Origin: Nakazawaea peltata
Taxonomy: Eukaryota; Ascomycota; Pichiomycetes; Alaninales; Pachysolenaceae
Assembly: GCA_001599355.1 (NCBI GenBank)
Contig: BCGQ01000001.1
Span: forward strand, 2,235,135 to 2,299,134
DNA length: 64,000 nucleotides
Direction of reading: 5' to 3'
A program made the translations under genes and the position numbers. How positions within the stretch are numbered: position 1 is the first letter of the stretch; every line of letters begins with the position of its first letter. Below the pieces are notes generated by a model. It had not been told where the DNA came from and made no database searches. It saw nothing but the letters and a program-made list of their open reading frames with translations. Shown here one piece after another: positions 3,362 through 63,555 of the stretch.

Positions 3362-4303
3362 TCATAAGAAATAGTCACTTCTTTGATTTTTGACTGGGTT
3401 CATCTTTTGGGTGTCATCTGGGACTGCAGAGAAGATCTTAAAATTCACATTCAAATTATCATCCACTTTCATAACACTGGCAACGTTACCACATCTATAA
3501 CAATAGTTAGGCAGAGACCAAACTGTTACCACATCTTTCTCTTTGAAGTGATATCTATAACCTTCCATGACTAACTGATGCAGTCTTGCAATTAATTGCA
3601 AGTTATTAATATGATTGAATTCTCTAGCAACTTTGGATCCAAAAAGCCAACCGGCTCCTCTTGGTGATACTGCCCAACTATCGACATTATCCGGGTCAGA
3701 CCATACCAAATCACAGAAACCACCTTCATGAGGAACTTCTTGTGCTCTAGATAACACTCTAATTTGATCCAATAAACGAATCTCAGGTGATAATCCACCA
3801 TGGATACATAAAATCTTACCATCAATAATAGCACTCAACGTAAGGAAATCAAATACTTGACAACAATATTTCCAAACAGTGGCTGATCCATACTTGTTGA
3901 GACATTCTTCATAAAACCCATAAACTTGGGTGATCTGTCTAGATTCATGATTACCTCTCACAAGTGTGATATGTTGAGGGAATTTCACCTTTAAAATCAT
4001 TAATAAGGTGAAAGTCTCAAGACTGAAATAACCTCTATCGACGTAATCTCCCAAAAAGATATAATTGGTGGAGATCCCATTAGTAGTTGGGAACCCTCCT
4101 GAAGTTTTAAATAACTCCAATAAATCATGGAATTGTCCATGAATATCACCACAAACGGTCACCGGACTTTGTACTGGTTGGATATTTGATTCCTCCATCA
4201 AGAGCTCTTTAATCATCTCACATAACTGTTTCATATCATTTTCTGTCAACAGTTTACACTGTTTGATCTCTTCAAACCACTGATCTGGACCCCTTTCTGT
4301 CAT
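3362..4303 (-). CDS. SIT4: Sit4/PP6-type protein phosphatase catalytic subunit
   Basis: Serine/threonine phosphatase of the PP2A superfamily. Sit4 acts with SAP proteins and Tap42 in G1 progression, TOR signalling and cell integrity. All metal-site motifs are present: GDIHGQ (residues 52-57), GDYVDRG and GNHES. The protein ends in DYFL, the carboxymethylation tail. N-terminal MTERGPDQW and [12 protein letters not shown] match Sit4 rather than Pph3 or Ppg1. Length is 313 (Sit4 311). A short insert, TTNGIST, precedes [12 protein letters not shown]. Three in-frame CTG codons were found, at residues 18, 241 and 264, and each falls on an alanine of S. cerevisiae Sit4. The last two are invariant in the family (ARAHQLV, WSAPNYCYRC). 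Confidence 0.96.
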
Positions 4304-5050
4304 CTTCTATACTTCTCTCTCCATCAATTCTTTGACTAACCGCCCTTTCTTCAAACTTTTGTATATTTTTTTTCTTCAGTTTTTGCGCCCAATTTTCTTT
4401 TAATCTGGCCGAAGTTCGTAAGGATTAGGTGAGGGATGAGGGGCGGGGTGGCGCGGGATCGAGTGGGCTAACAGTGAGAACTGAGATGATGAGCTGACTG
4501 GAAGAAGTGAAATCTTGAACAGAGGCCACGGATCTTGTCTGGGGGACCACATCCCTCATAATATCAGCCCCCACTCCCTCTCTCACCACCACCTTATTAG
4601 TTTTATTGATATTCCATACACTACCTTTTAGTCGTGTAAATTCATTTTCTCATATTATTGCTCTCTCATTTGAGGCTCATAATAATAAAGCGCTCGTGGG
4701 TAAATTTATATTGGTTTAGAGATCTTAACATTGAATAAGTGGCCATGCTTATTACCAATTGGACCAAATACAGATCCAAAATCTAGATTGTTCAATAGCC
4801 ACTGCACTCATTTCTCTGTTTTTATCTTTCCTTCCACAGCACTCCTCCCTATACTCCCCTCCCCATACTCCCCTCCCCATACTCCTCTCCCTCTCCTCCC
4901 CTCTCTATCCCCCTACATTCCTTCTCTTCCCTTTTCTTCCCTACGTTCCCCTCATCGCTTAGCAATTCTACCAGAGCAAGAAAAAATCTCAAACAAAAAT
5001 CAGTACATCAATCATTTAAACCCTTCAAAGTACGGAATAATTAATTGGAA
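4304..5050. promoter_or_regulatory. Divergent promoter region of SIT4 and DGA1
   Basis: No gene is seen. The SIT4 side has a T-rich stretch near 4360-4400. A C/T-rich repeat and CT-rich tract fill the last 250 bp before DGA1. The open frames at 4731-5093 and 4759-4962 are by-products of this CT repeat and overlap the DGA1 start, so they are not called as genes. Confidence 0.6.
4848..4888. repeat. CT-rich tandem repeat, unit 14 nt, about three copies
   Basis: The unit CCCATACTCCCCTC is repeated nearly exactly three times in the DGA1 promoter, and a degenerate CT tract follows. On one strand this is a polypyrimidine run. Confidence 0.75.
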
Positions 5051-6358: not shown

Positions 6359-6682
6359 TGAATTAATATTTGAACGATCTGGCATTGTTTTATTGATATG
6401 TAGTTATGTAGGTGTGGAGGAGTGTCTAGCTGCTTCTCTTTATTCTCTCAGCCTCCCACTTCCCACACTCCAACCATTGTCTCTCCATTCCTCATCTCTT
6501 CATCCCTCATCTCTTCATCCCCATCACCCTCTCTTTATTCGTAAACTGCTCCACATCGCGTCTCGAAAAAATATTCCATTTTCGGTAATCTATTTATGTT
6601 TTTCAGAATCTCCAAAGACAGGTCTTCGAGGGCATCTTCATAGTGAAGTAGACATTTAGGTCGGGTGGTTATACAGTTAAAG
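6359..6682. promoter_or_regulatory. SRS2 promoter region
   Basis: A 324-bp spacer between DGA1 and SRS2. It holds a duplicated CT-rich 16-mer (about 6491-6522, core CATCTCTTCATCCC) and, at 6556-6568, the cell-cycle-like motifs TCGCGT and CTCGAAA. No coding potential beyond the CT repeat frame. Confidence 0.5.
6556..6561 (-). promoter_or_regulatory. MCB-like element upstream of SRS2
   Basis: TCGCGT is the reverse complement of ACGCGA, a one-base variant of the MluI cell-cycle box (ACGCGT). It lies about 125 bp before the SRS2 ATG and is followed by CTCGAAA, which resembles an SBF site. SRS2 is expressed at G1/S in S. cerevisiae, so a role is plausible. Confidence 0.4.
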
Positions 6683-9334
6683 ATGGACTACGAGAATGTT
6701 TTAGATAAGCTCGTACAACGCCTCAATACCAATCAGCTCGAGGCTGTAACTGCTGATCCATACAAACCTCTCCAAATTATGGCGGGGCCTGGTACCGGAA
6801 AAACCTCGGTCTTGACCTCGAGAGTCCTGTATCTCTTGTTGAAATATCGGGAACAACCTCATCATATAATTGTTACCACATTCACAAAGAAGGCTGCTCG
6901 GGAGTTGGTTGAAAGACTATCACAAATGATACCTCCACAACTTGGCATTGATTTGTCGCGATTGCTCATCGGAACCTTCCACAGTATATGTGTGAGACTC
7001 TTAAGACAAAATGGACATCACATTGGGCTAGCAAAAGATTTCAAGATTGCAGATGACAGAGATTCAAAACAAGCTATGGAGACTATATTGGCACATCCAT
7101 CCAACGAGTTGAAGCAATTGCGAAATGTAGCACCTTCTCTGGATCAATCAAAATATTCAGCTCTTGATATATACCAAGATGATCCTAATAAGCACTCTGG
7201 TTATGATAAGAACAAGATAATGAGAAAGATCTCAAACCTTAAATCCATGGGAATTGACTATCAACTGTATGCTAGTACGGAACGACATTCTAAATCATTA
7301 CAATTAAGCCAAATATACACCGAATATCAACAGCTGTTACTGAGATCTAATTATCTTGATTTTGATGATATCTTATTATATACTAAACGTTTATTGGAGG
7401 AGAAGATATGTCTTTCATACATAAACCACGTTTTAGTTGATGAGTTTCAGGATACGGATACCATTCAATTGGAATTACTTTATTTAATGTCATCTCAATC
7501 ACTGGAACATCCCCATAGTGTAACTATAGTGGGTGATGCGGATCAGTCGATTTATGCCTTTAGAAATGCTGTCGCTTATAATTTCGAGTATATGAAACAG
7601 CATTACACTAAGATGAACATAGAAGTGAGAAGAGTAGTATTGGATCAAAATTATAGATCTGTCAGCTCCGTATTGAATATATCTGAAAAGTTAATGAGGC
7701 AAGAAACTAAGACGGGAAGACAAGAAAAAAATCTTAAATCACAATTCAGTCACAATTCCAAAACTATTTATAACAGGTTTGAGAACAATACTGATGAACT
7801 GGAGTTCATTTCGAATGAAATAGCAAGTCTTCTCAAACTCCCTGGTTTGTATAAAGCTGATAACATTGCAATCCTCTTAAGATCAAGGTTTCTTTCACGA
7901 GTCATTGAACAGTCTCTTCGAAAGAATCAAATATCTTATACAGTGATGCAGGGAAGAGCATTTTGGGATTTAAAAGAAATCCAGATCATCACAGATTATA
8001 TGAGGTGTATTTGCTCTGATCAAGATAAACTTGCGGTTTTGAGAGTGATTAATGTTCCATCCCGTGGACTCGGGCCAAAAGCTTTAGAAAATTTGGAGTC
8101 AGTGATCGACGATTACCTTAAATATGAGACAAATGATATTTGTATTATCGACTTCCTTGATCAATTACAACCACAGAAGAAACTTCTCACTCCACAGAAT
8201 ATCAAGGGAATACAACATTTTGTAGATATCGTAAAAAAGGCAAAATCTATTTTGTTGGATAATCCTTCTGATATTGGGGATAGTATAAATAGAATGTTCG
8301 ACTTCCTTACGGAGAACACAAATGTCATTGCAACAGTAAGACCTGATGATGTCACCACTACAGAGAATAATCTTAAAGAATTCAAGAGAGAAATATTAGA
8401 GTATGAGATTGTTGACAGATCGTTACCAGACTCAGAGACTGGTGAATGGCTCGATGAGGCTAATGAAAAAGATTCCACTGGGGTATCCTTGGTTTCTGAT
8501 TTTATTGACTCGATGAATCTCTATGAAACACAAGAAAACTCAGAGGATGGTAATAAAACTGCCAATGTGGTGATATCTACAATCCATGGAGCAAAGGGAT
8601 TAGAATGGCCTGTTGTTTTCATTCCGTGTTTGACAGAATCATTTTTCCCGGCGTCTTGGGCTTTAAAAACAGAGTATGACAATAAACCACTGACTACTGT
8701 AAAACTGGCTCTGAAGGCTGCAGAGATGGCACTGCAACTGTTGAATGAAGAGAGGCGTGCATTATATGTGGCAATGACAAGAGCTAAGAGCTGTTTGTAT
8801 TTAAGTGGATTCAAAAAGAAGATGTTCTCCGACCAGGTCTTGGAAGAGTCACGATTCTTGAAAGGATTAACTGATCATTTCAGTGACAGGAATTCCAGTT
8901 TGAACTCCGTCGAAGATGTCGAAAATCTTTATAAAATCCACTCACTGCCATTCCCACTGAAAGATCGCAATGGGATCCGTGCTTCATTACTAAGTTATAA
9001 TGACTTTCATGATTTATACAAAAAAGCCATTAACAAGACAAAGAGTAAAGAAAAGAAACCATTGAAAGGTTTTGTGAGTGCTAAATCGGCTAAGCCTTCT
9101 CTTTCCTCAAGGGCTCCATTTTCATCCAAAAATTCATTTAAGCCTCCAAAACGATTATACTCCCAATCATTCAGCCCTGGTATACAGAAAGTATTTAAAC
9201 GACCATCGCAAATAGCGGCAGAAAAAGCAGCAGCAGAGAAGGCAGCGGCAGAAAATACAGCTCCTAAACCTCCCAACACATCCCGTGCATCTGCTCCTGC
9301 ATACAAATATGATAAAAATGCGTTTAAAAGATAA
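6683..9334 (+). CDS. SRS2: Srs2-type superfamily 1 3'-5' DNA helicase / anti-recombinase
   Basis: UvrD-family helicase that strips Rad51 from single-stranded DNA and limits recombination during replication. The ATG at 6683 gives 883 residues; the GTG six codons upstream is not a plausible start. Walker A GPGTGKT is at residues 35-41, TTFTKKAARE is motif Ia, DEFQDT near 252 is Walker B, then DADQSIYAFR, and VAMTRAK near the C-terminal motor end. The N-terminus resembles Srs2 (LVQRLNTNQ), not mitochondrial Hmi1. The protein is about 290 residues shorter than S. cerevisiae Srs2, and the tail is a basic Ala/Lys/Pro linker with AAAEK repeats. CTG at residue 49 (SRVxYLLL) falls on the Ala of the RVAYLL motif. 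Confidence 0.93.
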   Translation: MDYENVLDKLVQRLNTNQLEAVTADPYKPLQIMAGPGTGKTSVLTSRVLYLLLKYREQPHHIIVTTFTKKAARELVERLSQMIPPQLGIDLSRLLIGTFHSICVRLLRQNGHHIGLAKDFKIADDRDSKQAMETILAHPSNELKQLRNVAPSLDQSKYSALDIYQDDPNKHSGYDKNKIMRKISNLKSMGIDYQLYASTERHSKSLQLSQIYTEYQQLLLRSNYLDFDDILLYTKRLLEEKICLSYINHVLVDEFQDTDTIQLELLYLMSSQSLEHPHSVTIVGDADQSIYAFRNAVAYNFEYMKQHYTKMNIEVRRVVLDQNYRSVSSVLNISEKLMRQETKTGRQEKNLKSQFSHNSKTIYNRFENNTDELEFISNEIASLLKLPGLYKADNIAILLRSRFLSRVIEQSLRKNQISYTVMQGRAFWDLKEIQIITDYMRCICSDQDKLAVLRVINVPSRGLGPKALENLESVIDDYLKYETNDICIIDFLDQLQPQKKLLTPQNIKGIQHFVDIVKKAKSILLDNPSDIGDSINRMFDFLTENTNVIATVRPDDVTTTENNLKEFKREILEYEIVDRSLPDSETGEWLDEANEKDSTGVSLVSDFIDSMNLYETQENSEDGNKTANVVISTIHGAKGLEWPVVFIPCLTESFFPASWALKTEYDNKPLTTVKLALKAAEMALQLLNEERRALYVAMTRAKSCLYLSGFKKKMFSDQVLEESRFLKGLTDHFSDRNSSLNSVEDVENLYKIHSLPFPLKDRNGIRASLLSYNDFHDLYKKAINKTKSKEKKPLKGFVSAKSAKPSLSSRAPFSSKNSFKPPKRLYSQSFSPGIQKVFKRPSQIAAEKAAAEKAAAENTAPKPPNTSRASAPAYKYDKNAFKR

Positions 9335-9620: not shown

Positions 9621-11489
9621 ATGAAAATATTGTGTGTAGCCGAGAAACCATCTATAGCCAAGGCAGTAGCTTATGCTTTAGGAGGTAAAGACACTAGTAG
9701 CAGGAAGTATAGGAACTTTGTGACAAACCATGATTTTGAGTTCAATTTCGGAGGCCAGCTAGGCAAATGCAGTGTTACAATGACTCATGTGCTTGGGCAT
9801 GTTTATAATATCGATTTTGCACCAGGGTTCGGGTGGAATGAGTGTACTCCTGACAGATTATTTGATGCTCCTACTATGGAGACAGTAGAGAAACAAGATG
9901 TGGTTCTGAACATTGCACAGGAAGCTAGGAGGGCCGATTTACTTATGATATGGACAGATTGCGATAGAGAGGGAGAATTTATAGGATTTGAGGTGCTAAC
10001 GGCAGCTAGAACTAATAATAGGAATTTCACATTGGAGAATACCCTTCGAGCTCAGTTCTCTCATACTGAGAAGAACCATATTATAAATGCAGCCAAGAGG
10101 CCGGTGCGACTTTCCAAATCTGCCATTGATGCTGTCGAGACAAGAAGGGAACTTGATTTACGTACAGGATATGCATTTACCAGGTTTCTTACCAATCTCT
10201 TCAAGTCCGAATTTTTGCAAGAAGTTGGGGGTGCAACAAAAGCCATAAGTTATGGGGGATGTCAGTTTCCTACTTTGGGATTTGTAGTCGATAGATATAA
10301 AAGAGTTACCAGTTTTGTTCCGCAGGAATTCTGGTACATAGATGTAGACCTGAAAGTCGTTGATCAGAAGGTCAGTTTCGCTTGGGATAGAGCTCATAGT
10401 TTTGACAGACTCTCAACAGTCCTTCTATTTGAGAACTCGTTCACGATTCTGAAGGATAAACTGAGAATAACAAGAGTTACAAGGAAAGATACACGTAAAT
10501 ATCGTCCATTTCCATTAACTACAGTTGAATTACAGAAATCGGGATCCCGATTTTTGAGGATGTCAGCTAAACAAGTATTGGACCTTGCTGAGAAGCTCTA
10601 TAACCTTGGTTATCTTTCATATCCAAGAACGGAAACTGATCGATTCCCAGCCGCAATGGATCTTAAAGATTTAGTTTCTAAACAAACAGGAAATCCAATA
10701 TGGGGAACGTATGCTTCCAGTCTTTTGGATAACCAGAGATTTAGGCAACCAAGAACAGGTTCTCATGATGATAAACTGCATCCTCCCATTCATCCTATAA
10801 GAGCAGCCGATCTCAATTCCTTGAAACTGGATGAAAAGAAAGTATATGAATTTGTAACTAGACACTTCTTGGCCTGTTGTTCAGAAGATGCATTAGGAAG
10901 TCAAACAGATGTAGGACTTCAATGGGGTAATGAGAATTTCCACACTTCTGGACTCACTGTTTTACAAAGAAATTATCTTGAAATTTATGTTTACCATGAT
11001 TGGAAATCATCTACTGTTCTTCCAGAATTCCAAGTGAACCAGGAAATAGTTTTAACAAAAGCAGAAGTCAAATCAGGAAAGACCGGACCGCCCTCTCATA
11101 TGACTGAGACAGAGTTGATCGCCTTGATGGATCTGAATGGAATAGGAACAGATGCTACTATGGCAGATCATATAGAAAAGATCATCGCAAGAGAGTATAT
11201 AACGACAAGGACTAAAGATTCTAAAAAGATATTTGTTCCGACATTACTCGGGATGAGTTTAGTGGAAGGGTTCAACAAACTTGGATTCGATAATATGTCT
11301 TTATCTAAACCATTCCTTAGAAGGAATTTGGAAGCCAAATTGGTGGACATTGTAAACAATAATATTACCAAGCAAGAGGTCAAAAATGAAATCTTGGAGA
11401 AATACAGAGAAGCTTACCTGTTGACTGGACGAAATAGTCAACAATTGATACAGGAATATCGTCAAACCAAACGTATGTATAGTAGTTAA
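9621..11489 (+). CDS. TOP3: DNA topoisomerase III (type IA)
   Basis: Type IA topoisomerase that works with the Sgs1/RecQ helicase and Rmi1 to dissolve double Holliday junctions. It has 622 residues (S. cerevisiae 656). The Toprim domain starts at residue 1 (MKILCVAEKPSIAKAV) and contains WTDCDREGE. The catalytic tyrosine is Tyr334 in SYPRTETDR, and the GIGTDAT loop and RHFLACC segment are present. There are no C-terminal zinc fingers, as in yeast Top3. CTG at residue 505 sits in D-x-NGIGTDAT, where S. cerevisiae has Ala. Co-directional with SRS2 only 286 bp upstream, so two recombination-control genes are neighbours. Confidence 0.96.
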   Translation: MKILCVAEKPSIAKAVAYALGGKDTSSRKYRNFVTNHDFEFNFGGQLGKCSVTMTHVLGHVYNIDFAPGFGWNECTPDRLFDAPTMETVEKQDVVLNIAQEARRADLLMIWTDCDREGEFIGFEVLTAARTNNRNFTLENTLRAQFSHTEKNHIINAAKRPVRLSKSAIDAVETRRELDLRTGYAFTRFLTNLFKSEFLQEVGGATKAISYGGCQFPTLGFVVDRYKRVTSFVPQEFWYIDVDLKVVDQKVSFAWDRAHSFDRLSTVLLFENSFTILKDKLRITRVTRKDTRKYRPFPLTTVELQKSGSRFLRMSAKQVLDLAEKLYNLGYLSYPRTETDRFPAAMDLKDLVSKQTGNPIWGTYASSLLDNQRFRQPRTGSHDDKLHPPIHPIRAADLNSLKLDEKKVYEFVTRHFLACCSEDALGSQTDVGLQWGNENFHTSGLTVLQRNYLEIYVYHDWKSSTVLPEFQVNQEIVLTKAEVKSGKTGPPSHMTETELIALMDLNGIGTDATMADHIEKIIAREYITTRTKDSKKIFVPTLLGMSLVEGFNKLGFDNMSLSKPFLRRNLEAKLVDIVNNNITKQEVKNEILEKYREAYLLTGRNSQQLIQEYRQTKRMYSS

Positions 11490-11518
11490 TATGATATATT
11501 TAAAATACAGATATGTAG

Positions 11519-14500
11519 TTATACACCTCTTCTCTTCTTAGCCTCCAAATTCAAGACATTCTCTTTGGATTTACCATTTGTCCTCAACATTTGGGCCAAT
11601 TTCGTACTTTCAAAGTCGAAACTAGTCGAGGTTTTCAAGAAGTCATGGCCAATTAATTCTTGAGCTGTAGGTCTTTTCTCTGGATCAATGGTGAAACATT
11701 TCTCGATGAAATCTTTACCTTGGTCACTTACATAAGGCTTAACATCATCTGGAATCGGAGGCAGCAACTTGGTTTTACCTAATTTATAAATAGCACCTAC
11801 AGCTTCTACATTGGACCATGGTCTTCTTCCGGCAAACATCTCCAAAACGACACAACCCAACGACCAAATATCCACCTTTGCGCTATAACCTTGTCTATGG
11901 TTATGAACGACATTATCGATGACTTCCGGAGCCATCCAAAATATAGATCCCTGCATAGACATCTCGGCATCATTAGCATAGATATTCAGACTTCTCTTGG
12001 AAATACCGAAATCAGATATTTTACAACTTCCGTCGATCTCCAACAACAAGTTATCGGCTTTCAAATCTCTGTGTAAAATTCCTCTGGAATGTAAATAGGC
12101 CAATCCACGAAGAACTTGAAGAGTTAAGAACTTGATCAAGTCTTCTTCGAATCTGCCGTACATTCTAAGACAAGAACCTACAGACCCACCGGCAACATAT
12201 TCTAAGAATAAACTATGGATATTTCCCAGTCTTTCGAATCCGAGATATTGTACGATGTTCATATGATCGAGATCTTTCATGGTATCCACCTCAGAAAGTA
12301 AAGCATCGATCACTTCATTTACTTGTTGACTTGCAATTCCAGATTTAGGTACTTTTACTTGCTTGACGGCCATCATTTCACCGGTAGTTACGTTTAAGGC
12401 TAAAAATACTTCACCAAACGTACCTTTACCAATAAGCTCACCCTTGACCCAGGCAAACTCTTTGTAGTCACCTTTACTATTTTTAAATTTACTTACAAAA
12501 CCGTCCTTTAATTGAGAAGAGGTCACTTCAATAACCTTCTGACCCCACATTTTAGTACTTGTACGTCTCAAAAGCTCCGATCTTTTATTCAGAGCATTCT
12601 CAGAAAGTCTTTTACGAGCTTCATTGGCTTCTCTGGCCACTACACGGATAGTCTTCATCCTTTGATGTCTACCAATAGTACCTTTTGGAACCTTGAGCTG
12701 ATGATCATCACCGGCATTCGATACTTTACGTGAAATAGACCTCTTTGGGGCATTGTCCTTATATGAGCTTAAGGCTGGTAATTTCTGTTGGATTGGAGAT
12801 GTCTCAGTCAATGGAGACATCAATGGTGATGTTGCCTCATCTACAATTGGTTTATCAAGGTCTGTGTTAGGGAAGAAACGTTCAAGGTTATCATAAACTA
12901 CCTCAGCAGGTGGTCTCATTGTTATCTCGGAAGAATTTTCATGTTGAAGCAGCCAAGTCTCATCTTTAGCAGAAGAATCATACTTGAGAGTTTCCGATGA
13001 CGATTTCTTTCCAGGAACCTTAGCCCAAAGATCATCATCTGAATCTCCACTACTATCATCCCCATCACTCAAGTCTGGAGCTCCTTCGAAAGAGATCTTA
13101 TTCTCACTAAAACGTTCGCTTTCAGTGAGAGTTCTGAATGATTTGAAAGAGTCATCTCTTCTCATCTGAGGAATACGTTCAATTACTTGACGAGGAGAAG
13201 GAGAGTCCCCAATTGTGGTTTCCTTTCCGTCGGGAGGAGAAATAGGAGTCCTTGCTATTGGGGATACACTACCACGATACGGTTGAGGAACAAGAGTAGT
13301 CGATAACCCTGGTGTGAATGGGGATAAATATTCATCTTTTTCAAGGTTAGAGACAGCAGATGGCGATCTAAGAGATGGTTTCTCCTGAGTGTTAATCTCA
13401 ATTGTGGGAGGAACCTTTTTACGGATCGACTGATTACGTTTAAGCGAGGAAGATGATCGGGAGATATCTGAAGAATTAGCAGGAGGTGGAGGAGGATTCC
13501 TCTTAGCCACAATATTCTGTCTTTGGAATGGTGATTCACGTCTCTTATCAAAATCAATCTCACCTGTACTCTCTTTACGAATAATCCTAAACGAGTTATT
13601 ACTGTTACTGTTCATTGAGCCCACTTGATTTAGAGATCTAGGAGGTGCTATCAACTTGAAATTGGATCCATTATCTCCACCAAGAGACGGTATTGAAGAT
13701 AATCCCTTCAGGTCCATTAATGACGACCTTCTCCTAGCTTTATCCTTGAAATTCAAGTAGTCTACCGGTTCTTTATTATTGTTGGTAACACCAAGAAGAT
13801 ATTGAGGTGTAGCAGGATATATAGAACCTTCTTCATTAGTATCAATGGAATGAGAAATTGAGGAACGAGTAGATGTCGCAGAGAGGGACAAGTCATTAAT
13901 AGTAGTGTTGGATCTATTTGCTTGGAATCCCCTGATCAACACCTTGAGTGATGGTTTATCTTTCAATGAGATTAATGTTTCTTCATCTAACAGCTCACCT
14001 TCATCGCACTCAAAGTCAGTAAGATGGAATGTGACAGAGTCTGACATAGGCACATTGAGTGTTTCACAAAGTAAAGCTTTGAGTGAAGTAACATCATCAC
14101 ATTTAGAAATATCACAGGAGTAGAAAAGCTTATTATTGGTAGTGATCAAAAGATGAACCCCATTGGAAGTATCGGATTTAGGTTTAGGTTGGAATTTTAC
14201 ATCGATAGAAGGGGGAGGTGATCTCGAAGTATCTTCACCTCCTGCTATAGTTGAGGAAGAGTCGAGAATATCGTTCTCATGTGGGGTAGTGATCTCTTGG
14301 ATTCTTCTAAGGGAACTTGTATCTGTAGGACTGGAGGTGGACGAGATCGACCTATGTGAAGTATGACCTCTTTGTTTGTATTCCGGAGCCTTATTAGATC
14401 TATCACTGACTTTATTTCTCAATTTACTGATTAATCCCTTCTTTGTAGAGTCTGTAGGAGAATCGAGTTTGATCGACTTCTTGGAGGAACTTTGAGTCTC

Positions 14501-34688: not shown

Positions 34689-36182
34689 TCAACTGTACTC
34701 GGTTAAGAAAACGTCCCAGAAATATTGGACTGCCGTTACGATGATCATCACCGACTCGAAAATACAAATAAGGAAATTTGACGCCCCCTTTCTTTTGAAC
34801 CGCTCACCGATTGAGACCAAGAGAATATTGGTGAACAATGTGAGCAAGGGAATGAAACTCGGATAAAGCCCAGTCATTAAGGCTAAAGGAAGCTCACTTT
34901 GTTCCTGACTCTTCAGAATGTAAGCTATGAATCCATCCAGGATCATCAGCATATACTTGTTGTGCCAAGTACCGAATAAAACAGGGAAGGCAAAAGAGAT
35001 GATATTGATTGGGCAAACGAATCTCTTTCTTTCAGAATAGAATTGGGCAATTTTATGGCTCACAGCTTCAGTGTCTTCGAAGTCAGGAACCTCGCTGAGC
35101 AAGTCGACAACTGATACAACATCGGTCAAGCCAACGGTCATACCAGCTCCAACGGTTGGATGTCTCATATTATACAGATCTCCAATTAATAACAATCCTG
35201 GTACTTTGTTATTAAGCAGAGGCATACGTTGGAGAGGGGCGACTCTGTAGTTTTCAGTGTCCAAATTATCAAGCAGATACTCAAGTGATTTATGTAACCA
35301 GTTAGGAACATTTGTTAAAGACGTGCCTCTTAAGAATGAAATCACTTCATTTCTGGAAGGGGGCGTTGTGGAATTGTAGCAAGCATAGAACCGGAATTTA
35401 TCCGATGTGATGGGGGTAATGAGCATCGGAGGATGCTTATCGTTGAAGAAGTGCATTGGAAGACCATGAAGCTCATGTTTGACATTACGTAAAACAAGAG
35501 ACATAGTGTAACCAGTAATGACTGGGGTAGAATTCTTGAACTCTTTACGGACTCTCGAGTATATTCCGTCACTCAGAACTACCAACCTTGCTTGATAAGA
35601 TCCGTTATCACTTACAACTCCTTTCACTGCACCTGCCTCATCCTTGATCAATTTAGTAACGACTCCACTAACCCAAGAGACATTTTCTTCACTGCGAGCA
35701 ACTTTCCTCATATTGGATACGAATTTTCCATGTCTGAACAGCAGGGCGAGGTGAGTGGTGCTAGAATTCCATTTTTCAGCATCAAATGATTCATCTGGTT
35801 CCAATTTATAAGAACCTGATTCAGGCAATTGAAGACTTTTCAACCTCTCTGATCCTTGGAAGTCCGATTTCTGGGGAAACATGATCCTTATAGTTTGAGA
35901 GCGTCTGTACCAGACCCCAAAACCATCTACAATTTTCAGGTCAATACCATTCAAACAATTAGCCAATCCAAGTGCCTTCAACAGCAGGAAACCGCCTGGG
36001 AGAAATAACTCTCCCAGAAGTCTATCTGGGTCTTTCCAATCCCTTTCGATAAGAAGAACTTTACGACCTTGACGCAGAAACAGGGTTGCTGCAGCACAAC
36101 CTACAATTCCGGCACCGACAACAATTGCATCATAAATTTGAGATGGGTCTGCTCCTTCTGGTTTCATAGATTGAATTGTCAT
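34689..36182 (-). CDS. ERG1: Squalene monooxygenase (epoxidase), paralogue 2
   Basis: FAD-dependent ER enzyme that converts squalene to 2,3-oxidosqualene, the target of allylamines. I start it at the ATG at 36182 (MTIQSMKPEGADPSQIYDA), giving 497 residues and aligning with the other copy. The frame stays open to an ATG at 36365, but TATATAAAA lies within the first codons of that extension (about 36349-36357), so the transcript should begin downstream of it. FAD motif VGAGIVGCAA is near residues 25-34, DGIYSRVRKE and GDLYNMRHPTVGAGM are present, and the C-terminus has two hydrophobic segments. RHPTVGAG deviates from the usual RHPLTGGG. Confidence 0.9.
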   Translation of the reverse strand: MTIQSMKPEGADPSQIYDAIVVGAGIVGCAAATLFLRQGRKVLLIERDWKDPDRLLGELFLPGGFLLLKALGLANCLNGIDLKIVDGFGVWYRRSQTIRIMFPQKSDFQGSERLKSLQLPESGSYKLEPDESFDAEKWNSSTTHLALLFRHGKFVSNMRKVARSEENVSWVSGVVTKLIKDEAGAVKGVVSDNGSYQARLVVLSDGIYSRVRKEFKNSTPVITGYTMSLVLRNVKHELHGLPMHFFNDKHPPMLITPITSDKFRFYACYNSTTPPSRNEVISFLRGTSLTNVPNWLHKSLEYLLDNLDTENYRVAPLQRMPLLNNKVPGLLLIGDLYNMRHPTVGAGMTVGLTDVVSVVDLLSEVPDFEDTEAVSHKIAQFYSERKRFVCPINIISFAFPVLFGTWHNKYMLMILDGFIAYILKSQEQSELPLALMTGLYPSFIPLLTLFTNILLVSIGERFKRKGASNFLICIFESVMIIVTAVQYFWDVFLTEYS

Positions 36183-37113
36183 ATCACACTTTATAGATGT
36201 TGGAATAATTTTTAGTTTCAGTTTAGAAAGGTTTTTATGTCTATACTCTGCAATTCGATGTCTAGTAATACTCTTTCGAATTGATTTTCCAGTTCTACTA
36301 ATTAATTTATTATGAATGTATAAGATTGAAGGGGGTGTTTGGGGATTTTTATATACTAATTTCATACGAATAAAATTAGGTTTCCCACAGAGGACAAATT
36401 GAAGTCAGACAGTAGACAATCCGATTCTCTTCAACCGACTAACTCATACTCTAATCCACCCCCAAAATGGTTCAAGCGTTTGTATCACATCATTAAACTT
36501 GCGTTAAAATCTCTCGTAGGCGATCGCCTATCTTTTATTATCTTAAGATTTTGCAGATCATCGGAGATTGTCTAAGCATAAGAGGCATATTTTTTTTTTT
36601 TTTTGGGTAGAGATTGACGAGGTCTGATCACGGAGATATTTGAAAGTTGAGACAAAGTCCAATCTAATAAGACCGTACTTTGAACAATAGAACCGATAGG
36701 CTCCGACACCAAGATTGCGTGAAATTATATCCTCCACCTTTCATAACATCCCCTTTCTGCAGCGCGCATAATAAAGAGGGATAATACGGAGTGCTTCTCG
36801 CTTATTCACTTGAAAGAACTATAAGACAAAGAGGAGAGTAATAATTCCCAGTATTTTTTAAGCTGTTCCTATACATTACCGACATGAAAAAAGAGACTCA
36901 AGTCAGAATGCAATCTGACATGAAATTCTACACCCTCTCCACCATTCCGTCTTCGATTCCACCCCTTTCATCCCTATCTCCTTCCCCTTGGTACTTTAAA
37001 ATTCATAATTTGCTCCCATTAAAATCACCAAACTTTTCCATCCATTTTTTTGCTATGGCGAACAAAGACTTGTAAATAACTTGGATCCATCAGCTAATAG
37101 AGTCCATACCATA
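36183..37113. promoter_or_regulatory. Divergent promoter of the second ERG1-like gene and LGE1
   Basis: 931 bp without a supported gene. Contains the TATA box of the ERG1 paralogue (about 36349-36357), a 14-bp perfect palindrome at 36517-36530, and a T run of about 16 at 36589-36604. The 63-codon plus frame at 36884-37075 is Ser/Pro-rich and ends 38 bp before the LGE1 ATG. It may be an upstream frame rather than a gene. Confidence 0.5.
36517..36530. promoter_or_regulatory. 14-bp perfect palindrome
   Basis: TAGGCGATCGCCTA is self-complementary over all 14 bases and sits in intergenic DNA. It looks like a site for a homodimeric DNA-binding protein. No factor is assigned. Confidence 0.4.
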
Positions 37114-37812
37114 ATGAGTGGAAGAGGAAGAGGCGGATACTATAACGATCATCACGGTGGATCCGGATACCGTGGTGGATATCGTTCCAGATACAACTCA
37201 TACGACAGAAACGATAACGGCGCCGAGTCTTCGCATTCTGAAGGGCCTAGACGCTCTTCTTCAGGACCATCATATAGAAATGGCGAATATAGAGAGAACA
37301 GATATGAAGACTATCGTGGAGCAGGGTCTCATCCAAGAGGATATGGAGGTAACTCGGGTCGTAGATATGACGACCATCATCAACATGGAGCTAGAGAATA
37401 CCAAGGATATAACAATAATGCTACGGTCGCTCCTCATCATCGTGGAAGTGTTCCTAGGGATGATGAAAGACCTCCGGTTCATTCAAGACAACAGTCATAT
37501 GGAGAGACCCATATGAGGCCAGCTGTTACCAGACCTACTGCTCCACCTCAACCGGTAGTACCAACTGAATCTGATAATATCCATATCCGTCTTCTAGAAC
37601 TCGATAGCCTTGACTCTGTTTCTGCTAGTTTCAAGCAAAACTACTTGGTAAAGATCGAAACAGAAGAGAAATTAAATCTGGATTTGAGGAATTTGAAGGC
37701 TGATGTGAATAAGAAGAACCTGGAAATCGAGGAACTTCAAAGACAGCTCACTAAATCTCGTCTTCTGGTGGATTTGACAAAGGAATCGTTACAAGATATT
37801 TCTTTACTTTAA
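37114..37812 (+). CDS. LGE1: Lge1-like cofactor of the Bre1 H2B ubiquitin ligase
   Basis: Lge1 forms condensates with Bre1 and promotes histone H2B ubiquitination on gene bodies. From the ATG at 37114 the protein has 232 residues (S. cerevisiae 332); the frame opens at an upstream TTG that is not used. The N-terminal two thirds is a low-complexity Arg/Gly/Tyr/Ser-rich region (MSGRGRGGYYNDHHGGSGYR), the sticky part of Lge1. The last 60 residues form a coiled coil (KNLEIEELQRQLTKSRLL), the Bre1-binding part. The assignment rests on this architecture and the MSGRGRGG start, so it is moderate. Another RGG protein with a coiled coil is possible. Confidence 0.65.
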   Translation: MSGRGRGGYYNDHHGGSGYRGGYRSRYNSYDRNDNGAESSHSEGPRRSSSGPSYRNGEYRENRYEDYRGAGSHPRGYGGNSGRRYDDHHQHGAREYQGYNNNATVAPHHRGSVPRDDERPPVHSRQQSYGETHMRPAVTRPTAPPQPVVPTESDNIHIRLLELDSLDSVSASFKQNYLVKIETEEKLNLDLRNLKADVNKKNLEIEELQRQLTKSRLLVDLTKESLQDISLL

Positions 37813-37854: not shown

Positions 37855-39342
37855 TTAACCAAAGTATTCAGCAGCTAAGACAGGGACGAAAACAATAACT
37901 GCAGTGTATAAAGTCATGATCATTTCGAAAAATGCTACCGGAGCCAATAAGACACCTCTTTGTTGGAAGTTAATGAATATCCCGTAGAACAGAACCAGGA
38001 AGAAATGTTTGAAGAGGGTGTAAGGGCTTGGATTAACACCTGAAATGAGAGAAGTTGGACCATCAATACATGATCCACCCAATTTAAAGTACTCAAAGCA
38101 CCCACGTTGTAATATTTGCAAGTATCTATTCCCATTTGCATCAAATAATTTCCATAACAGAAGTGATAAAACATTAATGACAGTATCCAAGTTCTTTCTT
38201 TCATAATGGAATTCTAATAACTTCTCCAATACTGCGGCATCATCACTAAAATCATCGACGTCCTTGAGAAGATTGACCAGCAAAGCAACATCGTTTAAGC
38301 CTGCAGTCATTCCTCCACCTGTCAATGGATGTCTCATATTCAACAGATCACCAATGACAAGAAGTCCAGGAATTGTGTTTTGCTCCAGAGATAAGAATTG
38401 GTTTGGCATGATTCTATAGTTCTCCTTGTCCAAGTTATTTAACAGCTCTTCAAAAGAAGGAACAGTAGATTTAGGAAGGTTTGGAAGAACAGCAGTCTTT
38501 AAAAAATTTACAACTTGTTTGTTTTGTGGTAACTTAGGACCATAATGACAACAAAGTATTCTAGTCTCTTCTGGTGAAATTTGATAGATCAAAATAGGCG
38601 AATGTCCATCACCTAAAAGAACATGTCCATGATTAGGAGCTGGAAGTTTACAATTCTTCAAACTCAACGAAATGAAATGACTCTCCACCTTTGGAGACGT
38701 TGTGATAAGCTCTTTACGGAATTTGGAATAAATACCATCACACAGAACGATCAAACTGGCTTTGTAAGTTTTTCCATCACAAAGTACTCCACACAGTTTA
38801 TTCATATCATCCTTGACGATCTTGTTGACGGTCCCACAAAGCCATGAGACATTTTCCTCCGACCGCGCAGTGTCTCTCAAATTGGAAATAAACTTACCAT
38901 GGCGGAACAGGACACCAGTATAGTTCTCTGAAGCATTCCAGTCGTTGATATCGATTGTGGAGTCAGATTGTAACTTATGAGTATCGGATCCCTTTAAGTA
39001 ATGTTGTCTCGATTCCTTAGATTCTGGGTAGTCTTGCTTCTTTGGATACGTCAAAGTTATGGTAGTCAGACCTTGGTACGAAATATAGTAACCCTTTGTA
39101 GGAATCAGCTCGATACCGTTAACACAATCGAGCATTCCCAACTTTTCTAACAGTCTTAATCCTCCCGGTTGCATTAATTCACCGACAATTCTGTTCGGTT
39201 CCTTCCAATCTCTCTCAACAATCAATACTTTCTTACCTTGCCTCAGAAGCAGTGTAGCCACACAAGGACCTATAACACCGGCGCCAATAACGATGGAGTC
39301 ATAAACAATGGACTCATCTGCGCCTTCGGGTCTTATCGTCAT
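37855..39342 (-). CDS. ERG1: Squalene monooxygenase (epoxidase), paralogue 1
   Basis: Second full-length squalene epoxidase of the window, 495 residues (S. cerevisiae Erg1 496). It has the FAD motif IGAGVIGPCVA near residues 18-28, the ERDWKEPNRIVGELMQPGG segment, LCDGIYSKFRKEL, and the canonical NMRHPLTGGGMTAGL. The C-terminal membrane segments are present. It keeps the canonical motif and has an Upc2-type sterol element 274 bp upstream, so it is the more likely housekeeping copy. LGE1 lies between it and the second copy, and both are on the minus strand, which suggests an old local duplication. Confidence 0.95.
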   Translation of the reverse strand: MTIRPEGADESIVYDSIVIGAGVIGPCVATLLLRQGKKVLIVERDWKEPNRIVGELMQPGGLRLLEKLGMLDCVNGIELIPTKGYYISYQGLTTITLTYPKKQDYPESKESRQHYLKGSDTHKLQSDSTIDINDWNASENYTGVLFRHGKFISNLRDTARSEENVSWLCGTVNKIVKDDMNKLCGVLCDGKTYKASLIVLCDGIYSKFRKELITTSPKVESHFISLSLKNCKLPAPNHGHVLLGDGHSPILIYQISPEETRILCCHYGPKLPQNKQVVNFLKTAVLPNLPKSTVPSFEELLNNLDKENYRIMPNQFLSLEQNTIPGLLVIGDLLNMRHPLTGGGMTAGLNDVALLVNLLKDVDDFSDDAAVLEKLLEFHYERKNLDTVINVLSLLLWKLFDANGNRYLQILQRGCFEYFKLGGSCIDGPTSLISGVNPSPYTLFKHFFLVLFYGIFINFQQRGVLLAPVAFFEMIMTLYTAVIVFVPVLAAEYFG

Positions 39343-42486: not shown

Positions 42487-43335
42487 ATGATACTATCTCC
42501 TGCTGAAGTATCGTTTTTACACGATTCTTTGTCTCTCAATCCTATAATAAGGCCAGATTCGAGAACCTACCAACAATTTAGACCAATCGAGGCATCTTGC
42601 TCGTTCCTTCCCAACTCTAATGGTTCCAGCAGGTTACGTTTAGCAGATGGATCTGAAGTTATTGTTAGCGTCAAGGCTAAAGTCGTCAAAGAAGCATTAA
42701 GTGAGTCTTTAATCAAAGTGGATATGGACATTAATGGAGAAAGAGACGATTCAAACTTGGTTAACAACTTGATCTCGACCCTTTCAGCATCACTTTTACA
42801 GAATTTCCCACTTGACAAATTAAAACTCACAGAAAAATTCTCATATCAGTTATATATTGATACTGTTGTATTATCACACACGTCATATCCGCTCACATTG
42901 ATCTCTCTTGCGACTTATCTCCTGCTTCGTTGCACAAGGTTACCATTATTGACTTCGACTGTTAATGATAAGGAAATTGAAGAACAACCGACATTCCATG
43001 ATGATTGGGAGGCATCAAGACCTTTGTTTGACTCAGAATCTTCGGTGGAACCTCCACTTTTATTTGTAGTTGGTATTGTGGCAGATAATGTGTTCATTGA
43101 CCCATCAATGGAAGAACAATATGTCTCGGAAAGTGGTTTAGTTATTGGATATCAATCAGGTAAGATCATATCACCACTTCAAAGCATTAGTCTTTCTTCT
43201 CTGAAGACAGTCAAAGGGTTCCAAATCAAGCATTTAACAAAGGCAAAGAATGTAGTAAAGTTCTGTGGAGATGAGGTCACCAAAGCATTGGTTAGCATAC
43301 TTAAAGACGAAGATAGTTATAATAATACTTTCTAA
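42487..43335 (+). CDS. RRP42: RNase PH-like subunit of the RNA exosome core
   Basis: Structural subunit of the six-membered exosome ring that channels RNA to Rrp44. It has 282 residues (S. cerevisiae 265). The RNase PH fold is recognised by RPDSRTYQQFRPIE at residues 20-33, the SNGSSRLRLADGSEVIVSVKAKVV strand region, and ISPLQSISL-like features near the end. As in other eukaryotic ring subunits, no phosphorolytic catalytic set is expected. CTG at residue 146 (TYLxLRCTRLP) lies at the Ala of IYSALNSTYLP in S. cerevisiae. It converges with TRM3, with an 18-bp gap. Confidence 0.93.
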   Translation: MILSPAEVSFLHDSLSLNPIIRPDSRTYQQFRPIEASCSFLPNSNGSSRLRLADGSEVIVSVKAKVVKEALSESLIKVDMDINGERDDSNLVNNLISTLSASLLQNFPLDKLKLTEKFSYQLYIDTVVLSHTSYPLTLISLATYLLLRCTRLPLLTSTVNDKEIEEQPTFHDDWEASRPLFDSESSVEPPLLFVVGIVADNVFIDPSMEEQYVSESGLVIGYQSGKIISPLQSISLSSLKTVKGFQIKHLTKAKNVVKFCGDEVTKALVSILKDEDSYNNTF

Positions 43336-56479: not shown

Positions 56480-56529
56480 TGTATAATAGTTCCACTGTAT
56501 AAATATAGAAGACCTATATTCGAATCCGA

Positions 56530-58144: not shown

Positions 58145-58248
58145 AAAAATCTTCTAAGAAAAACCTGTAGAAATCATATTCGTATTATGCTCACGATGCC
58201 TTAGTTTAATAATCTGCTCATCTACATCAAATAAATATATACATTAAT

Positions 58249-60024
58249 TCATGGTTCATTACATTTAGAAAGATACTCTTTCATGTTCTTAGAATAATCA
58301 TAACATAATGAGTTCAATTCCAATTTCAAAAAATCTTGGAATTCTTTTAATTGGTTTATAATTTCATCGTCCATCTTTGGGTTATCAGCAGCAAGAATTT
58401 GGTGCTGTTTACGGCATTGGATCAATTTTAATTTGGTTTTAAGAATCATTTGCTTGCGAGTTTGCTCCGGATTCTGATCGGTCATCGTTTGGATCAGTTT
58501 ATTGACCTTCTTCAAGCCCGGAATTTTGTATCCAAAGAGTTTATTCGATGAAATCACTGGAGGAAGTTCAGGGATCTTAGCGAGCTCTTCTTTAAAGAAT
58601 TTTTCATCATCTGCTGACACTTCTGAGGAAAGAATATGATCATCATTATGGATCAGTACAGAATTTTTAAGAATCCTAGATTTTGAGAGTGCATCATCGA
58701 TCATTTTGCTTTGTTGAGTATGTTTTTCTAACTCATTGAGAATAGCAGTATTATGTTCAATCAACCTCGACAACTCTGCTTGTTGAGCCCATTTTTGCTT
58801 ACTTAATGTAATCATTTTTTGAGCTCCTTTGACATAATTTTTCAATTCGATTATATTTTCCAAAAAATTCAAATTTATCAACGATCTTAACAGATTCATT
58901 TCGAAGAAATTGGTTTCAAATGATTGAGATAATTTATCCATTGCTTTTGAAGATTCACTTTCTAACGATAAAGAATTATAGCAAGAGTTCAATTCGGTAA
59001 AATCTGAGCATAAATCGGACATACTTTTGATTATTGATCTGTTGGATTTGATGATATCTGATAAAATAGTTTCGAATTCTTTGAACTTATTCTCAAATGA
59101 TTGATACTCCGCTTCATGTCTCTTAGATTCTTTATCTGTAAATACGTAGTTATCATTATTTGACTGGAAGTCGGTCGGAGTCGGTAAATTGACATAGAGC
59201 TCGTTATCTAAAGACTCCAAAGGATGGTATGGGTCAATTTTGTAGATTGGAGTAGCATTCAACTGACCAGCTGTTCCTGAAGTTACAAATTCATAGAAAC
59301 TTGGATGAGGATCCAAGAAAACCAAAAAGACAAAACTCGTTCTGATTTTATCAGAGCTTATACATCTCTCGAGGAATTTCTTCAACAGACGTTTTCTGTA
59401 ATCAACGATTGCTCTTGAACTATCAGCCGAAGCCTTTGAAGAGTTGGTAGTCAGATTAGACAGTGCCGAAGTTGGGATTGCTCCACCTGCTGTCGCCGAC
59501 AGTGCATGAGGTGCGGAAGATGAAGTGTCCAGAGTTGTCGTTTGCAGCAGGCGCAGCAGCAGCAGCAGCAGTGAAGATATATTGGCAGTAATACTCTCCT
59601 TCTGCGGAATAGGAGGAATAATTGATAGAGGAAATAACTTGACAAGCACATTTCTCAAATGCTCAAAATCACTATATCTCCTTTTAACAAAGATCTCATC
59701 TGATACCTTGATTGTATAAACGATGAAAGATCTCCCCAGAGTCGGTTGGTCGATCTGATTAGACCTTGTCAGGTCGGTTATGGAGATAGATGTTTTAGAT
59801 GCATTGGGATCAGTAACAAGTATTTCCTCAATCAATTTCGAGTACATATTCACATCACCACTAATTCTCCCGTTTGTCTGCTCCAAAGCATTAGACCTCA
59901 ATTCCTCAGAATGTTCCTCTTGAGGCTGGGGCACCTCTGGCTCATCGTCTATCTGAAGGTCTGTAAATACTTCTTCACCAGACTTCAAATCCAGATTATC
60001 CTGTGCAACAGGTGAGTCCGTCAT
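58249..60024 (-). CDS. SNX41: Snx41/Atg20-type PX-BAR sorting nexin
   Basis: Sorting nexin that binds PI3P and pairs with Snx4/Atg24 for endosomal retrieval and selective autophagy. It has 591 residues (Snx41 625, Atg20 640 in S. cerevisiae). The PX domain spans about 78-255 (ITDLTRSNQ, VKRRYSDFEHL, IIPPIPQKES, then YRKRLLKKFLERC). The C-terminal half is a BAR-like coiled-coil region. An insert of about 65 residues splits the PX domain and contains a run of CTG codons (plus strand about 59546-59572). Under the standard code it would be poly-Leu, but under the alanine code suggested here it is a poly-Ala, Ser/Thr-rich linker. SNX41 and ATG20 are not separable by eye. Confidence 0.82.
   Translation of the reverse strand: MTDSPVAQDNLDLKSGEEVFTDLQIDDEPEVPQPQEEHSEELRSNALEQTNGRISGDVNMYSKLIEEILVTDPNASKTSISITDLTRSNQIDQPTLGRSFIVYTIKVSDEIFVKRRYSDFEHLRNVLVKLFPLSIIPPIPQKESITANISSLLLLLLRLLQTTTLDTSSSAPHALSATAGGAIPTSALSNLTTNSSKASADSSRAIVDYRKRLLKKFLERCISSDKIRTSFVFLVFLDPHPSFYEFVTSGTAGQLNATPIYKIDPYHPLESLDNELYVNLPTPTDFQSNNDNYVFTDKESKRHEAEYQSFENKFKEFETILSDIIKSNRSIIKSMSDLCSDFTELNSCYNSLSLESESSKAMDKLSQSFETNFFEMNLLRSLINLNFLENIIELKNYVKGAQKMITLSKQKWAQQAELSRLIEHNTAILNELEKHTQQSKMIDDALSKSRILKNSVLIHNDDHILSSEVSADDEKFFKEELAKIPELPPVISSNKLFGYKIPGLKKVNKLIQTMTDQNPEQTRKQMILKTKLKLIQCRKQHQILAADNPKMDDEIINQLKEFQDFLKLELNSLCYDYSKNMKEYLSKCNEP
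59546..59572 (-). repeat. CTG trinucleotide run inside SNX41
   Basis: On the coding strand six CTG codons are followed by CGC and two more CTG codons. It lies in the disordered insert of the PX domain. Confidence 0.8.
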
Positions 60025-60188
60025 CTTATTTGTTATTGTCGGTGTTCAATGCGAAATGGATTAAAAAGTGTATCGAATTGCCACACGGAAACCTATCAGC
60101 TATATAATTATCTAAGCGCTATCTTTTGTGTGTGGTTTGCCTTGTATGAGAATAGTTTCGGAAGGGAGTGTACGAGATATCAAGTTTG

Positions 60189-60198
60189 CCTAATTAGG
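60189..60198. promoter_or_regulatory. Mcm1-like P-box between SNX41 and tRNA-Thr
   Basis: CCTAATTAGG palindrome within TTGCCTAATTAGGAAGG, the same 17-mer as at 47833-47849. It is 165 bp upstream of the SNX41 ATG. Confidence 0.5.
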
Positions 60199-60302
60199 AA
60201 GGGAGATGAGCAATTGCCTATAGAGTATGGGTAGAATTGAAGGGGGGTATCAAGGGGTAGTTCGATAGTAGTTAAAGAGCTCCAGAATATGTTCAGAGAT
60301 TT

Positions 60303-60310
60303 AAAAAAAA
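60303..60310 (-). terminator. Pol III terminator of tRNA-Thr
   Basis: Eight consecutive T residues on the transcribed-strand reading, directly after the discriminator base. Confidence 0.85.
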
Positions 60311-60382
60311 TGCCCCCAATCAGAATTGAACTGATGATCGCCGCATTACAAGTGCGGTGCCTTACCACTTGGCCATAAGGGC
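60311..60382 (-). tRNA. tRNA-Thr(UGU)
   Basis: A complete 72-nt cloverleaf without an intron. The acceptor stem GCCCTTA pairs with TGGGGGC (two G-U pairs), the D stem is GCC/GGC, and the anticodon stem CCGCA/TGCGG closes loop CTTGTAA with anticodon TGT. The T stem ATCAG/CTGAT closes loop TTCAATT. The discriminator base is A. The A box TGGCCAAGTGG is canonical. A run of eight T residues starts just downstream (plus-strand A8 at 60303-60310), the RNA polymerase III terminator. Confidence 0.95.
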
Positions 60383-61803
60383 GGGCTCTTAGTATACCTT
60401 GAGAAAATACGAATGCATATAGTGCAAAGATGTGAGAAAAATTGAAACCTGGAATCTGACCGTTTGGAAAGAGGTAATCATCCAATAAGATGATAGATCG
60501 TTATAGAGATGTCGAAATTATCCATTATTCATGTTTTAGAATGATCAATATGATTCTTTGTACTAATTTATTTAATTCAAAAATCTACTTTCACCATCCT
60601 AGTAAAAAAGAATTATATATCAGTTTTTTACCTGTTACAGAAGATGAGCTAAATTTGTATGTAAATTTTGAAAAAGATTCTGGGATGTTGAGGTGGAACT
60701 TAATTTTGTACGAAACGAGATTTCAGTGACAGAAGGAGAATCTAAACGGCAGAGTATTAAATACTAGTTTTATTTTTCAAATGTGGCCAGTGTATCTCTT
60801 GTATCACGGTGAGCGGCCTTCAAGACCCAATTTACTCCCGACTTTCCCACCGACTTTCCCACCGGTATTCACGTCAAATCTCTCCAGGATATAATTTCCA
60901 TTTTAGGTATGACCGCTTATTCCTACTGAAAATTGTACTTTCCATTTTGCATTCGGTTATTTTTTTGGAGTCCCGGAAATTATGTACCGTTTTCGATATT
61001 TGCAGTGCTGTTAACAAAAAACTGCTAGTAAACAAATAAATTTTAAGCGGTTTTCCACGTTATTTTTGTGCCCACGCCTTGACCCGGCCGCCTAATTTGC
61101 CAAAAGAAAAAAAAAAAAACATATGCCAGAGGGAAAATCCCTCCCTGTAAGATTCCCAATCCAGGCATCGAAATCGCTATAAACAATTTCTGTTGCCCTA
61201 CGTCATAACTAAGGGGCGGCGGAGAGTGACCGATAGCATGGCCACAAATTTTAAAACGTATTACTCTACTACACCAGAAAGTTCTTTTACGCCACCAAAA
61301 CACGTTACTTCCAGATTCTTATTCTACTTCCAATCTCTCTATACAATGTCTCTATACTACTGCTTCTACTTTCCGCCTTCCAGTCTCTTCTTTATCGTAC
61401 CTCCCCCCTTGACCTCGCACATTGTTTCTCTTTACGCCCCTACAAAAATCAAAAAATAACTCAAAAAGTAACCAAACAAAAGGCAAATTTTAACACAAAC
61501 AATATTAACGTTCCCAGGTTGGTACAGCTGCTCTCAGCTAAGAGAGGAAAATTTTTTTTCTTTCTTTTTGGCCTTAGGTGTTTAGGTACATTGCCCAGCT
61601 GCTATATAAAATAAATTTGAAATTCTGATTTCCAATATTCATCATCTTATTCGATACACTGAATTAATAGAAACAAATCAGGATTAGATCTTTTGAGTGG
61701 TTAGATCGACTGTGGCTCTTTTTTTAGAGAAACAGTTCCGGGTGATTTTTAAGGAACCGTCACCTGCGTGTGTATTACTAGATATTTTTTTGACAGTGCC
61801 AAA

Positions 61804-63555
61804 ATGGGGGATATTCAAACTTCATCAAATAATAGACCAAGGAAATCGACAATGTCGAAGATTGGGCGAGTCTTTGGTCTTTCGTCGACTAACTTAGTTC
61901 ATGAAGAGCAAATGCTGCTTCAACTGGCTTCAGCTAATGTGTCTACCTCCACCTTTTCCATCAATGGTAATGAAAAGAGTGGTAGGGGAAGCTCTGCATC
62001 TTCTATTAATGAACCACAACCTATCAAAAATAGCACTAAGGGATCTCCGCTTTTGAAGTCACGTCCACAATCTCCAAACGGTGTACCGTCCCCTGTATTG
62101 ACTGGTCTGCAAGGCCTGCCACCTTCTAGACAGTCATCTTTGAGAAAGCCAAAGACCGATGTGAAGAAACTGCATCCTGAGAGGGCCATTTCCCCGGCTG
62201 GTTTGGATTCGAGTGGGCAACAACAACAACAACAACATTCCACTGTATCATCTGTTGGGTTATCCAGAACTCCTTCCTCGGTCTCTAAAAGTGGACTGGC
62301 TTCTTCTCATTCTGTCCAACAGAGCAGATTCATCATGCTCGAGGATGGTTTACATGAACATCACTTGAAGAATGCAAAGAGACAAGAGAAATTAGGACAT
62401 ATGATTAAAGATTTACTCGGAGCTAAGAAATTGAGAAATGAGCTGGTGAGTGCTGTTCCAAATATCCTCAGCTCCGTGATACCACCTATCAGTGAGGAAC
62501 CTACTATTCATGAGACCCCTCAACTGCAAAAACCTCAAGCCAATGCTCCTCCAAGTCTTTTGACAGGGTTGGTGAACCAAGTGAAACGTGGAGAAATCAC
62601 CCAATATACACCACCTACCCCTCTGCAACAGCTTGCTCAACAACAACAGATCTCACTGACATCAACAATCAAAGTGGATTCTCGTTCATTTGTCGAGAAA
62701 TATGGTACTTGTCAAGAAGTGATTGGTCGTGGAGCTTTCGGTGTGGTCAGAATCTCTCATAAGAAGGATAAAACCAGCGAGGTCTTCTACGCAGTCAAGG
62801 AATTCAAAAGACGTCCTCAAGAAAGTGATAAGAAATACTCTAGACGGTTGACCTCGGAGTTCTGTATCTCTTCATCATTACAACATCCGAATATTATCCA
62901 CACTTTGGATCTTCTTCAAGATCTGAAGGGAGATTATTGTGAGGTTATGGAATTCTGTACAGGTGGTGATTTGTACTCTCTTATTATTACACTGGGTAAA
63001 TTGGAGTACGTTGAGGCTGATTGTTTCTTCAAACAGTTGATGCGTGGTGTCAATTATATGCATGAGATGGGTGTAGCTCATCGTGACTTGAAGCCAGAGA
63101 ACTTATTACTCACTCTGAATGGTACATTGAAGATCACCGATTTCGGTAATAGTGAGTTATTCCGTACACTGTGGGAGACTGACATTCATTTAAGTGGTGG
63201 CGTATGTGGATCTTCGCCATACATTGCCCCAGAAGAGTACACTCTGGAAGAATTTGACCCTCGTAAAGTGGATATTTGGTCATGTGGAGTGATCTACATG
63301 GCAATGAGAACCGGACGTCAATTATGGAAGTTGGCAACCCCAGAAGATGAGTTTTACTCGACTTATCTTGAGAAGAGAAAAGATGCTGAGGGTTACGAGC
63401 CGATCGAAAGTCTTAAGCGCGCAAGATGTAGAAACGTGATATATTCGATCTTAGATCCTGTTCCTTCTAGGAGAATTACATCTAAACAAATTTTAAATAG
63501 TGAGTGGTGTCGTGAGATTAAATTATGTCACGCTGGTGAAGGGAAGGTGAATTAA
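61804..63555 (+). CDS. SAT4: Sat4/Hal4 protein kinase
   Basis: NPR1-subfamily kinase that stabilises the Trk1/Trk2 potassium transporters and gives salt tolerance. From the ATG at 61804 it has 583 residues (S. cerevisiae 603); the GTG 12 codons upstream is not used. The N-terminal 290 residues are Ser/Gln-rich with a CAA repeat near 62218-62237. A conserved pre-kinase motif [14 protein letters not shown] follows. The kinase domain starts at about 300: [40 protein letters not shown], and [18 protein letters not shown], all close to Sat4. CTG at residues 397 (TxGKLEY) and 456 (FRTxWE) match Ala in S. cerevisiae Sat4 (AAGKLEY, FKMAWE). Confidence 0.93.

Follow-up and report, generated by a model that had tools for sequence, protein, structure and literature searches.

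CTG codons in a 64-kb window of a budding yeast genome are most probably read as alanine

The window, a stretch of 64 kb, would come from the nuclear genome of a budding yeast that uses CUG as a sense codon for alanine. From comparison of its encoded proteins with homologues and domain profiles, we put the probability that CUG is read as alanine in this genome at about 95%. The code is already known rather than new, and the genome is most likely a member of the CUG-Ala clade, a membership that we infer because this clade is the sole lineage with that code in the cited literature passages. The window contains 35 ORFs of at least 100 amino acids, 32 of which were used. Ten of the 32 were compared with homologues of solved structure (PDB) and 20 were scanned with Pfam (those ten, KIN28 and nine more), with 12, including AMN1, in neither set. 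Gene names are those of an earlier note on this DNA, together with what we take to be the identities of further ORFs, and Pfam families come from the scans.

Each codon was assigned a meaning by leave-one-codon-out calibration, in which residue profiles were taken from all other codons and the best of 20 amino acids was sought. The standard meaning was recovered for 56 of the 61 sense codons. The five remaining codons were ATG and TGG, which are sole codons and leave no profile, CGC (7 sites), CGG (6 sites) and CTG (78 sites). ATG and TGG lie outside the reach of this design; of the other sense codons with more than seven aligned sites, CTG alone disagrees with the standard code, and this sets its pattern beyond chance. 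Where testable, sense codons other than CTG keep their standard meaning, bar CGC and CGG. For CTG, alanine scored +7.7 bits, serine −19.0, threonine −23.5 and leucine −88.9, and in bootstraps over sites alanine came top 1974 times out of 2000. The earlier note had interpreted CTG as an alanine codon, and its interpretation is supported here, alanine being the best of the 20 meanings with serine second, 27 bits lower, and leucine far below. The modest absolute score of alanine is likely due to the placement of CTG at less conserved positions.

Ten ORFs, with the BCK1-like and SAT4-like proteins represented by their kinase domains only, were aligned to their PDB homologues, and the residues opposite each codon were tabulated from 15 pairwise alignments with 33–59% identity outside CTG. 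In these alignments CTG was entered as leucine, which biases the table towards leucine and against any other answer. The earlier note had proposed such a tabulation as a check, and on the 15 alignments from this window alanine is the commonest residue opposite CTG (29 of 109 cells, at 78 sites), followed by Val 13, Lys 10, Ser 7, Arg 7, Leu 7, Glu 6, Gln 5 and Gly 5; the remaining cells hold Asp 5, His 4, Pro 4, Ile 2, Asn 2, Phe 1, Trp 1 and Thr 1. In neighbourhoods of 40% identity or more, alanine occupies 17 of 49 CTG cells, and binning by local identity agrees with the pooled table. If CUG were standard leucine and the pattern noise or misalignment, a reading whose chance we regard as negligible, the seven leucine cells would count in its favour; leucine is nevertheless rare opposite CTG despite the bias towards it, and in these alignments the other five leucine codons do behave as leucine (326 of 660 cells). 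Serine likewise lies opposite CTG in only seven cells, whereas the six serine codons lie opposite serine in 153 of 500.

The 15 alignments were drawn from 37 obtained. Twenty were dropped as extra chains of PP2A-C, TOP3A, TOP3B, PcrA, ASK1, Chk1, Chk2 and Rrp42, and two as weak matches of bacterial FAD monooxygenases to squalene epoxidase A (at most 14.5 bits per domain); by eye, the latter would give, among others, Leu opposite residue 95 and Ala opposite residue 397. The table also leaves aside SQLE against squalene epoxidase A at 510–519 and parts of two helicases, UvrD1 past residue 469 and domain three of the Deinococcus protein. In the helicase stretches, CTG was seen by eye opposite Thr, Glu and Gly, with other CTGs opposite gaps. 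The Rrp5 alignments were tabulated up to residue 852 (S. cerevisiae) and residue 962 (Chaetomium).

Among the observations against the alanine reading are two from the alignments. Alanine is matched less often at CTG than at GCN codons, which lie opposite alanine in 124 of 327 cells, and a mixture fit gave CTG an alanine share of just 0.56 (0.30–0.81), the remainder being mostly background (0.34), with Val 0.10, Leu 0 (0–0.03) and Ser 0 (0–0.17). As controls, GCA gave an alanine share of 0.78 (0.42–1.00) and pooled GCN codons 1.00. Such a pattern could arise if CUG were ambiguous, translated mostly as alanine but to a small extent as another amino acid, although this is very unlikely: the share of leucine-conserved sites is bounded near 0.03, and the tendency of CUG in code-changing clades to fall outside well-conserved sites, as remarked in the Discussion of PMC5951914, would give the same pattern. 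Low-level misreading of CUG is invisible to sequence comparison. Under the alanine reading, the weaker match of CTG sites than of native alanine codons agrees with that passage and resembles the Alaninales code.

The 20 ORFs scanned with Pfam were translated under NCBI tables 26 (Ala), 12 (Ser) and 1 (Leu). Scores were summed over 27 hand-picked domains, with CTG-free domains and overlapping or weaker families of the same stretch, including S1_RRP5, left out. The sums were 4381.0 bits for alanine, 4342.1 for serine and 4256.6 for leucine, and the best reading per domain was alanine in 15, serine in nine and leucine in three. Once the two FAD domains overlapping with squalene epoxidase are set aside (25 domains remain), alanine leads serine by 21.1 bits and leucine by 100.7 bits. 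Individual cases include the RNase_PH domain of the RRP42-like ORF (Ala 39.4, Ser 36.2, Leu 31.5) and the PX domain of ORF 58249–60024 (Ala 55.3, Ser 54.0, Leu 50.7).

The main exceptions to the preference for alanine are three kinase domains and the S1 domains of RRP5. The kinase domains slightly prefer serine over alanine (SAT4-like 182.0 against 179.0, CHK2-like 241.0 against 240.4, BCK1-like 219.5 against 218.0), and serine also gives the best score in six of the 24 remaining domains. These domains, and the second place of serine in the open-ended test, speak for a serine code like that of the Ser1 (Candida) and Ser2 clades, in which the alanine-like sites would arise from the similarity of serine and alanine. 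The chance of such a code seems slighter still than that of ambiguity, since serine falls below alanine by 27 bits in the alignments and by 21–39 bits in the Pfam sums and has a mixture share of zero. Leucine scores above alanine in the RRP5 S1 domains by 1.7 bits, in SpoU by 0.5 and in zf-UBP by 0.6, as well as in S1_RRP5, which overlaps S1 and stands outside the sums, by 2.5 bits; the earlier note had also pointed to a match with leucine in the ERLSxNNC motif of AMN1, an ORF outside both scorings. Set against these slight preferences are the deficits of leucine relative to alanine of 101 bits in Pfam and its −88.9 bits in the open-ended test, and on these comparisons leucine is excluded as the main meaning of CTG. 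The hydropathy context of ±5 residues, computed for the 262 CTG codons with enough neighbours, did not separate alanine, serine and leucine codons.

Each of the 12 residues listed as CTG-encoded in the earlier note does correspond to an in-frame CTG, and for the seven that it had placed by coordinate the codon lies at exactly those positions. Its further claim, that homologues carry alanine there, holds in part. Nine of the sites were compared residue by residue (all but KIN28 286, AMN1 261 and AMN1 494), and four lie opposite alanine: SIT4 264 in WS-x-PNYCYRC (3512–3514, minus strand), SIT4 241 in R-x-HQLVMEG (3581–3583, minus strand), SRS2 49 (6827–6829, plus strand; alanine in all three bacterial helicases tabulated) and RRP42 146 (42922–42924, plus strand; alanine in S. 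cerevisiae Rrp42). The two SIT4 sites had been called invariant alanines of the PP2A superfamily, of which alanine in human PP2A-C, the sole sequence checked, stands. Four other sites lend alanine no support, namely SIT4 18 (4250–4252, minus strand; Gln in human PP2A-C), TOP3 505 (11133–11135, plus strand; Lys in both human homologues), BCK1 1455 (11762–11764, minus strand; Asn in MAP3K2, His in ASK1) and SAT4 397 (opposite Asp of Chk1), and SAT4 456 lies opposite a gap. Because the homologues are mostly distant, these residues do not contradict alanine in closer fungal relatives.

Strong alanine sites also occur beyond that list. Both squalene-epoxidase-like proteins have CTG within the GD-x-NMRHP motif, at residue 397 of protein A (GD-x-YNMRHP; 35175–35177, minus strand) and residue 333 of protein B (GD-x-LNMRHP; 38344–38346, minus strand), where human SQLE has alanine; the paralogue of A thus also carries CTG here (38346). 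Residue 281 of the TOP3-like protein (10461–10463, plus strand) is alanine in human TOP3A and TOP3B. Residue 386 of the same protein, before HPPIHP (10776–10778, plus strand), is opposite Ala in TOP3A and Asp in TOP3B, and SRS2 373 (7799–7801, plus strand) is opposite Ala, Ala and Gly in three bacterial helicases.

The two squalene-epoxidase-like genes (34689–36365 and 37855–39342, both minus strand) lie about 1.5 kb apart, with an ORF (37114–37812, plus strand) in between. The paralogues are 41% identical over 492 gapless residues, and the gene at 34689–36365 is divergent (SE 186.7 against 369.2 bits), with an N-terminal extension. Nine CTG positions are common to both. The 12 positions with CTG in one paralogue only are opposite Val (4), Gln (2), and Ala, Ser, Leu, Arg, Lys and Asn (1 each), which indicates no single residue.

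The 32 ORFs contain 270 in-frame CTG codons, or 1.61% of 16,773 residues, beside 373 GCT, 191 GCA, 184 GCC and 37 GCG. The CTG share of CTG plus GCN codons is 26% overall; individual ORFs reach as much as 50%, against 3% in the one for argininosuccinate synthase. That ORF (1978–3225, plus strand) has one CTG in 415 codons against a mean of 16 per 1000, and from it highly expressed genes may avoid CTG. An in-frame run of six CTG codons (59554–59571, minus strand), followed after a single different codon by a further two CTG, lies in the PX-domain ORF, and would be a polyalanine stretch under the alanine code; a run of three CAG occurs at 9228–9236. The heavy use of CTG departs from a remark in the cited passage of PMC5951914 that CUG is relatively rare in code-changing clades, a difference that one window cannot decide. 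Five CUG-Ala genomes were taken out of the codon analysis in PMC6701816, according to the passage cited, and no per-species figure for CTG usage in CUG-Ala yeasts was found in the cited literature passages.

The CUG-Ala clade comprises Pachysolen, Nakazawaea and Peterozyma in the passages cited from PMC5951914, which agree with the earlier note that CUG-Ala decoding is established for Pachysolen and relatives. It corresponds taxonomically to the order Alaninales and to NCBI table 26 (passages also in PMC11540330 and PMC6692504); an earlier grouping had placed Pachysolen with CUG-Ser species (PMC4986446, passage cited). Like the Alaninales code, that of the window would have CTG as alanine and its other testable codons standard, bar two with at most seven sites. 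The same codon has moved from leucine in the CUG-Ser codes of Serinales (Ser1) and Ascoideales (Ser2), from which the window differs in that serine fits worse than alanine. For Ascoidea rubescens, the passages cited give CUG as alanine in a 2017 review (PMC5499181) and as serine by mass spectrometry (PMC5951914). GC content in 4-kb windows is 37–41%, beside 42.3% in Nakazawaea ambrosiae (PMC10106607, Table 2, passage cited), the single clade value for comparison and too little to indicate a genus. There is only a small chance that the window represents a CUG-Ala lineage that lies outside the known Alaninales or arose independently of them, with CTG now a heavily used alanine codon.

No tRNA with a CAG anticodon was found in the 64-kb window by ARAGORN, also with its intron option, or by Rfam; the only tRNA gene found there is a tRNA-Thr(TGT) (60311–60382, minus strand; ARAGORN, Rfam). 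In the Alaninales the CAG tRNA is known; here the codon meaning is shown by protein comparison, from aligned homologues and profile scores. According to the cited passages of PMC5951914, the CAG tRNA of the clade arose by mutation of a tRNA-Ala gene, tRNA-Leu(CAG) was lost, and only the alanyl- and seryl-tRNA synthetases can do without particular anticodon bases. By analogy with this clade, a tRNA-Ala with its anticodon mutated to CAG would insert alanine at CUG; it would still be charged by alanyl-tRNA synthetase, which ignores the anticodon bases, and the old tRNA-Leu(CAG) would be gone.

The result adds no new code but confirms one already described. Translated under the standard code, this genome would be given leucine wrongly at about 1.6% of codons where alanine belongs, and the errors would hit conserved positions in phosphatase, topoisomerase and sterol enzymes. 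The heavy use of CTG as an alanine codon in the window may hold some interest for the study of how codons become established after reassignment.
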